Assembly: GCA_903901335.1 (NCBI GenBank)
Contig: CAIUQR010000032.1
Coordinates: forward strand, 1 to 64,000
Length of the DNA stretch: 64,000 nucleotides
Direction: 5' to 3'
Origin: an uncultured delta proteobacterium
Lineage (GTDB): Bacteria; Desulfobacterota; Desulfobulbia; Desulfobulbales; Desulfocapsaceae
This document shows positions 5,682-9,010 of this stretch, piece after piece. The position numbers and the translations under genes are program-made. The notes beneath the pieces were generated by a model. It searched no databases and was not told the DNA's origin. It saw nothing but the letters and a program-made list of their open reading frames with translations. Numbering within the stretch: position 1 is the stretch's first letter; each line of letters begins with the position of its first letter.

Positions 5682-7214
5682 CTACCTGTCCAGAACCTTT
5701 CCTATCAACTTCTGGGCCTGTTGCAAAAAAGGCATCAGGGTTTCACGCTGGACAGCACTGATCACAACCCCCTCTTTTTCCACCTCGATAATCACCGGCC
5801 CAGGATCGTTCACCTTGTCGATTTTATTGAAGACCTTCAGGCAGGGGATCTCTGTGAGCTGGAGTTCTACAAACAGCTTCTCCACCACCGCCATATGATC
5901 CCGGAAGCAGGGATTTGAGATATCGATCACATGAACCAGAAGGTCTGCCTCTCCAAGTTCTTCCAGGGTTGCTTTGAAGGCCTGCAGGAGTTCATCGGGC
6001 AGGTGCTGAATAAACCCTACTGTATCGGTGATAATAACCTCAATATCTTCGGGAAAACGAAGTCTGCGGCTGGTCGGATCGAGTGTTGCGAACAACTTAT
6101 CCTCGGTAAGGATATGACTGTCCGTCAATGTGTTCAAGAGGGTGGATTTTCCGGCATTGGTATATCCGACCAGTGACAGTACCGGCAGTTCCTTCTTCCG
6201 GCGTTTGGCCCTTCTCCGGTAGCGTTCACGGGTTACACCTTCCAGTTCTTTGGTAAGCCTCGCCAGCCGGTCGTTTATACGCCGCCTGTCAATCTCCAGT
6301 TTCGTCTCGCCCGGTCCTCTGGCGCCAATTCCCCCGGAGAGCCGCGACAGGGCGTCATCACGGGTGGAAAGCCTCGGCAGCATATATTTCAGCTGGGCCA
6401 TCTCCACCTGGAGTTTTCCTTCCCGGCTCATTGCCCGGTGGGCAAAGATATCCAGGATCAGCTGGGTCCGGTCAATGACCCGCATCTCGGTGAAATCGGT
6501 GATGGATCTGACCTGGGAGGGATTGAGTTCCTGGTTGAAGATAAAAAGATTGGCGTCCAGCTGCAGGGCGCGGATCATAATATCCGCCAGTTTCCCTTTC
6601 CCGAGAATCAACCGGGGATTGGTCTTTCTGCTCCGTTGCAGGACGGAATCAAGCACCAGTATCTGATCGGAACGGGCCAACTCAACGAGTTCCCGCAGGG
6701 ATTCTTCGGCGGTTATCTTTGGTTCGGTGCTGACACTGATCAGAATCGCCCTGTCCTGCCCTTTATCAACATTTTTTCCGGCTCCCTTGCGGGTGAATTC
6801 AGATTCCAGTTCACCTATCAGATCGCTAAACGAGTCTTTCTGGTTAGCAGGATGAATGGGTTTCAGGAAAGACCAGCTCTTTCCCTGCACCGTATCCGGG
6901 AGGAGATGGACAGATGAGAGAAGCCCTGGAAAGCCGTCTTCCGCCACCTGCAGGACAGAGAGCATATCAAGGCGCAGAAAGAGGAGATCCATCAGGTCTT
7001 CATCGTTGATTTCCTCTCCCGCAAGATGGGTATGGATGAGCCGTAGTCCCTTCAGCCGCCCCCCAGCCGTACGAACAAGCGACAAAGACGGAATCATAAT
7101 CCCGTTGAAGGTGCCGACGATCACGGATTCAACCTTCCCGGAACGGTGGATAAGAATACCTATCTGCCTGTTTAACTCAAAGGAGATCTGGCAGAGCGTT
7201 CTGGCCATATCCAC
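5682..7214 (-). CDS. hflX: GTPase HflX (real start probably about 34 codons upstream)
   Basis: HflX is a ribosome-binding GTPase that splits stalled or hibernating 70S ribosomes. The frame has the HflX N-terminal domain, a charged linker (RERYRRRAKRRKK), the P-loop GYTNAGKSTLLN, DTVGF and NKID. The coordinates use the only standard start, a GTG at 7214, but this cuts into the conserved N-terminus. The same frame stays open upstream and encodes GIVTGNIGGLKKNHLKVLER, matching the usual HflX beginning. Just before it is a good GGAGG at 7324-7328 but no ATG, GTG or TTG in frame. ATA (7316) or ATT (7310) would be needed, or a frameshift from the ATG at 7330. It follows nadE on the same strand. Confidence 0.9.
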   Translation of the reverse strand: MDMARTLCQISFELNRQIGILIHRSGKVESVIVGTFNGIMIPSLSLVRTAGGRLKGLRLIHTHLAGEEINDEDLMDLLFLRLDMLSVLQVAEDGFPGLLSSVHLLPDTVQGKSWSFLKPIHPANQKDSFSDLIGELESEFTRKGAGKNVDKGQDRAILISVSTEPKITAEESLRELVELARSDQILVLDSVLQRSRKTNPRLILGKGKLADIMIRALQLDANLFIFNQELNPSQVRSITDFTEMRVIDRTQLILDIFAHRAMSREGKLQVEMAQLKYMLPRLSTRDDALSRLSGGIGARGPGETKLEIDRRRINDRLARLTKELEGVTRERYRRRAKRRKKELPVLSLVGYTNAGKSTLLNTLTDSHILTEDKLFATLDPTSRRLRFPEDIEVIITDTVGFIQHLPDELLQAFKATLEELGEADLLVHVIDISNPCFRDHMAVVEKLFVELQLTEIPCLKVFNKIDKVNDPGPVIIEVEKEGVVISAVQRETLMPFLQQAQKLIGKVLDR

Positions 7215-7363
7215 TCCGATGATCAGATTTTCGTCGACTCGTTTGGCAGCAAGCCTTTCCAGGACCTTCAGATGGTTTTTTTTCAGGCCTCCGATATTAC
7301 CCGTTACAATGCCTATAGTTGATCCTCCATGTGAGGTATATGTTTCATCTGTATGATATAAGG

Positions 7364-9010
7364 TTATTCTTTATAATTCTGGACATTCGGGTACCGTCTC
7401 CCGTATCCGAATGCCTTGCTGGTCACCTTCAGCCCCATCGGGGCCTGTTTCCTTTTATATTCATTCATCCGAATACGCCGCAGGATATCACGGACCACCT
7501 TCTCAGCAAAACCGTAAGAGATTATCTCATTCAGGCTGCAACCCTTTTCAAGATGCAATTCCAGGATCTGATCCAACATCTCATATGGAGGAAGATCATC
7601 CTGATCGAGCTGATCGGGTTTCAGCTCCGCAGTCGGTGCCTTGGTAATAGACCGCACCGGAATAATCTCACCGTTACGGTTTACATATCGGGAAAGCTCA
7701 TAGACCAGCTGTTTCGGCACATCTGAGATAACCGCCAGTCCGCCGCTCATATCGCCGTAAAGGGTACAGTAGCCCACTGCCATTTCGCTCTTATTGCCGG
7801 TAGTCAGGAGTAGGCTTCCGAGCTTGTTTGACAGGGCCATCAGCAGGTTGCCGCGGATTCGAGCCTGGATGTTCTGTTCGGTCAGGTCCTCCCGCATTCC
7901 GGTAAACAACGGCCCCAGACTCTTCCGGTAGCAGGCAAACAGCTCACTTATCGGCAGCACCTCAAACCGGCAGCCCAGATTCGCAGCCAGTGCCCTTGCA
8001 TCCTCCAGGGAATCAGTTGAACTGTACGGAGAAGGCAGGGCCACCCCCATGACATTGTCAGCACCCAGGGCGCTGACCGCAAGGGCTGCTGTCAAGGCAG
8101 AATCGATCCCTCCGGAAAGGCCTAAAACCGCTGATTTGAAACCGCATTTTCCCGCGTAGTCCCGCACGCCCATTACCAGGCTGTCATGGACCGCCGCAAT
8201 GTCATCCTCGTCAATGGGACCATGTATCTCCCCCAGCCAGGTGTCGGTGTCGACGACAAAAAGATCCTCAGAAAAACCGGCTCCTTTGCCTATGACCGTC
8301 CCGTTACCGTCCATTGCTATACTGCGGCCGTCAAAGAGCAGAGAATCCTGTCCACCTACTTGATTGACATAGAAAAAAGGCACATGAAAACGGGAGATGA
8401 GCGAGCGGAAGATTGCATAACGGGTGTCCTCCTTCCCTCTCTGAAACGGAGACGCGGAGACATTAATCAGAACATCGATCGTTGTTTTCAACCTTTTGGC
8501 AGTGGTAAAGAGGTCCTTAACCGGATCAACCCTGTATTCGCCGACCTGATCATGCCAGATATCCTCGCAGACTGTCACCCCGAAGGTGAGGTCGTCAATG
8601 GTGTAGAGCTCAGAGGGCGGGCCGGGTTCGAAATAACGCGTTTCATCGAAGACATCATAGGAAGGCAGAAGCTGTTTTCTTGCTCTGAAGACAACGGCAC
8701 CGTTTCGGACCACGACGACGGAATTATAGAGGGGTTTTCCAGGATGGCCTTGCCGTCTCTCGATACAGCCGAACATCACGTCGACAGGAGGCAGATCGCG
8801 GAGAATACCGGCTATGGCGCGTTCATGGTCATCCAGAAAGGAGGTTCGTTCCAGAAGATCCTGCGGGGGGTACCCGGAAACCGCCATCTCGGGAAAGACC
8901 ACAAGTCGACAGCCTCGCTCCAGGGCCTCACAGGCACTCTTCACGATCTTTTTACAATTTACCGGAAAATCACCGATAACCGGATTTGTCTGTACCAGCC
9001 CGATTTTCAC
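7364..9010 (-). CDS. nadE: Glutamine-dependent NAD+ synthase
   Basis: NadE amidates deamido-NAD to NAD, drawing ammonia from glutamine. The 548-residue protein has both parts of the long form. The N-terminal nitrilase-type glutaminase domain starts MKIGLVQTNPVIGDF and has the catalytic-cysteine context VTVCEDIWHD. The C-terminal ATP-pyrophosphatase domain has the P-loop LGLSGGIDSALTAAL and TTGNKSEMAVGYCT. The start is GTG at 9010, preceded by GGGGAG. It is followed by hflX within about 50 bases and preceded by mltG, all on the minus strand. Confidence 0.96.
   Translation of the reverse strand: MKIGLVQTNPVIGDFPVNCKKIVKSACEALERGCRLVVFPEMAVSGYPPQDLLERTSFLDDHERAIAGILRDLPPVDVMFGCIERRQGHPGKPLYNSVVVVRNGAVVFRARKQLLPSYDVFDETRYFEPGPPSELYTIDDLTFGVTVCEDIWHDQVGEYRVDPVKDLFTTAKRLKTTIDVLINVSASPFQRGKEDTRYAIFRSLISRFHVPFFYVNQVGGQDSLLFDGRSIAMDGNGTVIGKGAGFSEDLFVVDTDTWLGEIHGPIDEDDIAAVHDSLVMGVRDYAGKCGFKSAVLGLSGGIDSALTAALAVSALGADNVMGVALPSPYSSTDSLEDARALAANLGCRFEVLPISELFACYRKSLGPLFTGMREDLTEQNIQARIRGNLLMALSNKLGSLLLTTGNKSEMAVGYCTLYGDMSGGLAVISDVPKQLVYELSRYVNRNGEIIPVRSITKAPTAELKPDQLDQDDLPPYEMLDQILELHLEKGCSLNEIISYGFAEKVVRDILRRIRMNEYKRKQAPMGLKVTSKAFGYGRRYPNVQNYKE

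Follow-up and report, generated by a model that had tools for sequence, protein, structure and literature searches.

Putative initiation of hflX at AUU, AUC or AUA across the phylum Desulfobacterota and its possible control by IF3

Initiation factor IF3 keeps the ribosomal subunits apart, and in E. coli the gene that encodes it, infC, has a start codon of the AUU/AUC type. To our knowledge, very few well-documented bacterial genes start at AUU, AUC or AUA (termed AUH here), and gene finders are blind to such starts. Genes already known to have an AUH start include infC, pcnB and, recently, ccpN and cvfC1 (PMC13009471). In S. aureus reporters, the output from AUH starts is approximately 10% of that from AUG (PMC13009471). 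Codons besides AUG, GUG and UUG are subject to repression of initiation by IF3; infC regulates itself in this way, and sigR of Streptomyces is repressed as well (PMC5472188). HflX dissociates 70S ribosomes and may prevent their reassociation (PMC4770234).

The hflX gene described here is on the minus strand of a 64,000 nt stretch of DNA (the window) from an uncultured bacterium with a 155-contig genome assembly. The nearest named relative of this genome is a Desulfocapsaceae MAG in the phylum Thermodesulfobacteriota (L034), which we take to be the Desulfobacterota of GTDB naming. Read from an ATA at positions 7314–7316, the coding sequence (5682–7316) encodes 544 aa and displays a coding pattern from position 7316. 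The product is a full GTPase HflX (TIGR03156, E = 7e-132, 439.5 bits with a curated cut-off of 216.75), and its alignment with a same-genus orthologue of 85% identity begins at residue 1. A perfect GGAGG Shine-Dalgarno (SD) sequence (7324–7328) is 7 bases 5' of the ATA. The 5' neighbour is nadE (7364–9010, minus strand), which encodes a glutamine-dependent NAD+ synthase (PRK13981, E 8e-198) and ends 47 bases from the ATA.

Upstream of the ATA the hflX frame is open for 19 codons, up to a stop, and has no ATG, GTG or TTG. The first canonical codon downstream in this frame is the GTG at 7212–7214, the start according to a standard gene finder. An ATT at 7310–7308 is 13 bases from the GGAGG. A mini-ORF (7313–7348, minus strand) extends over the hflX start; it has an ATG at 7348 and another at 7330, and from the latter it reads ATG GAG GAT CAA CTA TAG, with the TAG (7315–7313) overlapping the ATA. 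It is not conserved and is probably incidental. Folding at the hflX start reveals nothing unusual (z = 0.23), and an Rfam search there gave no match. The coordinates and motifs that a sequence-only reading had given for the hflX start are exact when the window is read directly.

Sequences of hflX were collected from close relatives, 80 named contigs, the class, the phylum and 120 further start regions. A total of 279 loci were anchored on the GN..GLK motif, and 240 remained after near-identical starts were removed. The start column is the fifth codon before this motif, which is the place of the ATA in the window. Codons at the exact column are ATC (101 loci), ATA (52), ATT (38) and ATG (12). 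With a shift of one codon allowed, AUH is present in 205/240 loci (14 of these are one codon away), AUG, GUG or UUG in 32/240 and ACG in 3/240; the loci are not independent of one another, and the assignment is ambiguous where a canonical codon is near the AUH, e.g., in L010, L050, L090 and L246. The lack of ATG, GTG and TTG at the conserved HflX N-terminus, reported in the sequence-only reading, is real, and non-AUG initiation, its first option, is supported by this comparison across the phylum; the codon class recurs at this place far more often than chance would give.

AUH-start hflX genes are spread over dozens of families of the phylum. They include those of isolates, with ATA in Desulfopila sp. 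IMCC35008 (L060; complete chromosome) and Desulfoprunum benzoelyticum, and ATC in Desulforhopalus singaporensis. In 157/240 loci, the stretch that runs from the in-frame stop upstream to the motif has no canonical codon. The upstream in-frame stop is within 15 codons in 145/237 loci and directly precedes the start in some (L028, L048, L143, L271). Because stops are directly or a few codons 5' of the start in many loci, read-in from upstream is impossible there.

Several loci display other arrangements. ACG is the apparent hflX start in three members of family f28 (L259, L263, L266), in whose genomes infC starts with ATA, and another member (L258) has ATG. MAG JAPLJH01 has two hflX copies (L099, L102), in which TTC and ACA are found in place of the AUH and an ATG follows two codons later in both. 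L015, L106 and L110 have an ATG two codons past the AUH, yet their SD is spaced for the AUH; thus the available AUG has not shifted the SD.

A change in substitution pattern is found at the AUH. Substitutions between close pairs, counted by codon position (1/2/3), number 681/370/2070 over hflX codons 2–34 and 1532/1491/1415 over the 45 bases upstream. In the alignment of 239 loci, the SD is the only conserved block 5' of the start; information content upstream is otherwise approximately zero, and it is 1.24 bits at the A and 1.39 bits at the T of the start codon. Of the loci whose AUH is at the exact column, 97% have an SD match of at least 4 nt, and the aligned spacing has a mode of 7. The putative AUH start site with its strong SD is conserved across the phylum, and, by these patterns, the window hflX very probably starts at the AUA at 7316. 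The sequence-only reading had proposed either this ATA or the ATT at 7310; the ATA stands, as it occupies the conserved column and its distance from the SD is the modal one, and the ATT is rejected as the hflX start.

Translation could instead begin at a downstream canonical codon, which in the window would be GTG 7214, the first ATG, GTG or TTG in the hflX frame. This is very improbable. The SD sits at the AUH and coding conservation reaches it. The start in relatives is not at the place of this GTG; the position of their first canonical codon downstream is not conserved and ranges from codon 2 to beyond codon 100. A GTG start would also remove 34 conserved residues; among these are the initial strand and helix predicted for the N-domain (pLDDT 85–95). 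In the AlphaFold model of this domain the pLDDT is 85 in the first ten-residue block and 93–95 in the next ones. The model is thus confident from the first residues, which implies that the fold includes the 34 residues that a GTG start would remove.

Three further explanations of the missing AUG are still less probable. A programmed -1 frameshift from the mini-ORF (ATG 7348 or 7330) into hflX, raised in the sequence-only reading, is suggested by the overlap of the mini-ORF stop with the ATA in the window, but this arrangement is not conserved among relatives. An ATG that reads past the start column in another frame is present only in 29 + 23 of 239 loci; the mini-ORF frames are not conserved, most loci have no such ORF, and the GGAGG would fall within the mini-ORF. 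Hence a frameshift has only a marginal probability. It is equally hard to credit a special initiator tRNA whose anticodon is of the Ile type. There are GGGCTNATAACCC arms with non-CAU triplets in several genomes, yet all arms called as tRNA by ARAGORN carry CAU and none of the non-CAU sites that were checked is a tRNA, so that no special initiator tRNA was found among the GGGCTNATAACCC arms checked; the three AUH codons are also used interchangeably. The least probable explanation is a sequencing or assembly error. The window genome is in 155 contigs, but the same codon class is in the same place in approximately 200 other genomes, some of which are complete genomes of isolates, e.g., that of Desulfopila sp. 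IMCC35008. The one-base error that had been considered is thereby excluded for practical purposes, and no indel that restores an in-frame ATG appeared in the comparison with relatives.

The N-terminal domain of HflX (residues 1–187, window positions 6756–7316, minus strand) has no Pfam family. The best PDB matches to its model are mostly MPN/JAMM structures, i.e., CSN5, Prp8 Jab1, Pyrococcus JAMM1 and RadC; these are weak, with a best E of 1.3e-3. The motif HTHLAGEEINDEDLMDL in this domain resembles a degenerate JAMM metal site. The structural model is consistent with an MPN-like domain, which may be present in HflX of the Thermodesulfobacteriota/Desulfobacterota.

On the hflX tree, the third base of the start underwent no fewer than 48 changes among A, C and T. 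Only 12/203 ATN starts have G at this base, a lower proportion than that of G at fourfold sites (14%, p = 0.0005). G is rare despite these changes and although an efficient AUG is one mutation away, which implies that selection is at work. Selection against AUG at the hflX start is therefore highly probable. AUA represents 27% of starts, and it accounts for 14% of internal isoleucine codons (p = 3e-7). On the tree, AUH was exchanged a minimum of 19–20 times, so it is not essential. Among the control genes, taken from the same genomes, glmS starts with ATG in 51/51 cases and frr, located by tblastn, in 28/28; era has a canonical codon near the start in 25/25. Too few genomes matched TIGR00741 (hibernation factor) for its use as a control. 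SD pairing energy is -9.25 kcal/mol for AUH hflX vs -4.85 kcal/mol for canonical hflX (p = 4e-11, with kinship ignored). Phylogenetically independent pairs, compared for SD strength and start codon, agree with this difference in a ratio of approximately 6:1 (p ~0.1). The SD of AUH hflX is no stronger than that of frr.

The start of infC was read in the same groups. It is AUU or AUC in 29/30 relatives, with AUU in the genome of the window, and AUH or CUG in 30/30 more distant genomes with AUH hflX. Canonical infC starts are absent from the approximately 54 AUH-hflX genomes. AUG is the infC start in 6/27 canonical-hflX genomes (G012, G225 and four of family f42) vs approximately 0/54, with a Fisher p of 0.0009 in which relatedness is ignored; only three lineages contribute the infC AUG genomes. 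The joint pattern of infC AUG and canonical hflX is only suggestive. Many canonical-hflX genomes retain AUH infC, and coupling between hflX and infC is thus not obligatory. The four f42 genomes with canonical starts for both genes (L285, L288, L296, L280) are single-contig genomes of 1.6–1.8 Mb. In family f51 (L419, L428, L430) the infC start is apparently CTG behind a strong SD.

A mechanism can be proposed from these arrangements. The ordinary initiator fMet-tRNA (anticodon CAU) would read AUA 7316 with a mispair at the third base, and the strong SD at optimal spacing would enable initiation there. IF3 would destabilise initiation complexes on AUH, and the codon may be held non-AUG by selection for this property. 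More HflX would be synthesised during a shortage of IF3 relative to 30S subunits, and less during an abundance of IF3. The AUH codon of hflX would then follow the logic of infC self-control. As HflX splits 70S ribosomes and IF3 separates the subunits, hflX and infC would share one control. The reading as a whole, in which hflX is initiated at AUH and kept non-AUG for repression by IF3, is given a probability of roughly 0.68 from the sequence comparisons; IF3-responsive control, taken by itself as the reason for AUH in hflX, is somewhat favoured. A broader proposal is that hflX and infC together constitute a regulon that senses IF3 throughout the phylum; a shortage of IF3 relative to ribosomes would raise both, and the arrangement would tend to be lost from both together. 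The chances for and against such a regulon appear even.

The main rival to IF3 control accepts the AUH start but holds that it does no more than keep HflX constitutively low, a role suggested for E. coli pcnB, with no dynamic control by IF3. The weak SDs of the canonical-start homologues fit this, as if both arrangements give a similar low output, and AUH lowers output approximately tenfold in S. aureus reporters (PMC13009471). However, an AUG with a weak SD would be equally easy to obtain, yet the pair of strong SD and AUH is held phylum-wide, and infC AUG accompanies canonical hflX in three lineages. A constitutive function of the codon is therefore considered unlikely, with IF3-responsive control of hflX preferred.

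A search of the open literature found no report of a non-AUG hflX start. hflX adds to the known AUH-start genes and is unusual among them in its phylum-wide conservation and in the function of its product. A phylum-wide case in a ribosome-splitting gene suggests that discrimination by IF3 is a regulatory input broader than infC self-control. HflX database entries across the phylum are probably truncated. Coding conservation that extends upstream of the first NUG, up to an SD-AUH pair, provides a signature for further genes of this type.

Compared with known systems, infC is similar to hflX in that both have an AUH start preceded by a strong SD, an arrangement that is conserved over large groups and found in the same genomes, and in that the infC product IF3, like HflX, has a role in the separation of ribosomal subunits. 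HflX differs from IF3 in that it is a GTPase that splits 70S ribosomes, and control of hflX by IF3 would act in trans. For the AUU start of pcnB, we know of no conservation beyond enterics. E. coli pcnB resembles hflX in that its AUU start limits the expression of a housekeeping gene (Binns and Masters 2002, as cited in PMC13009471), and it differs in that the start is regarded as a constitutive limitation. Streptomyces sigR is, like hflX, a gene other than that of IF3 in which a non-canonical start is conserved and the SD is strong; it differs in having GTC/GTT instead of AUH (the sigR start is GTC), in that the conservation is within one genus and in that the effect of IF3 was measured (PMC5472188). 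Staphylococcal ccpN (AUA) and cvfC1 (AUU) share with hflX an AUH codon, an extended SD and conservation between species, but they encode a transcription regulator and a small protein in Bacillota, and their starts were found by ribosome profiling (PMC13009471). Outside the phylum, hflX was seen in E. coli and Fusobacterium only. Both have the orthologous GTPase core but, unlike the window hflX, annotated ordinary starts, with ATG read in Fusobacterium. Fusobacterium HflX shares the N-domain motif of the window HflX, whereas E. coli HflX is without the 187-aa N-domain.
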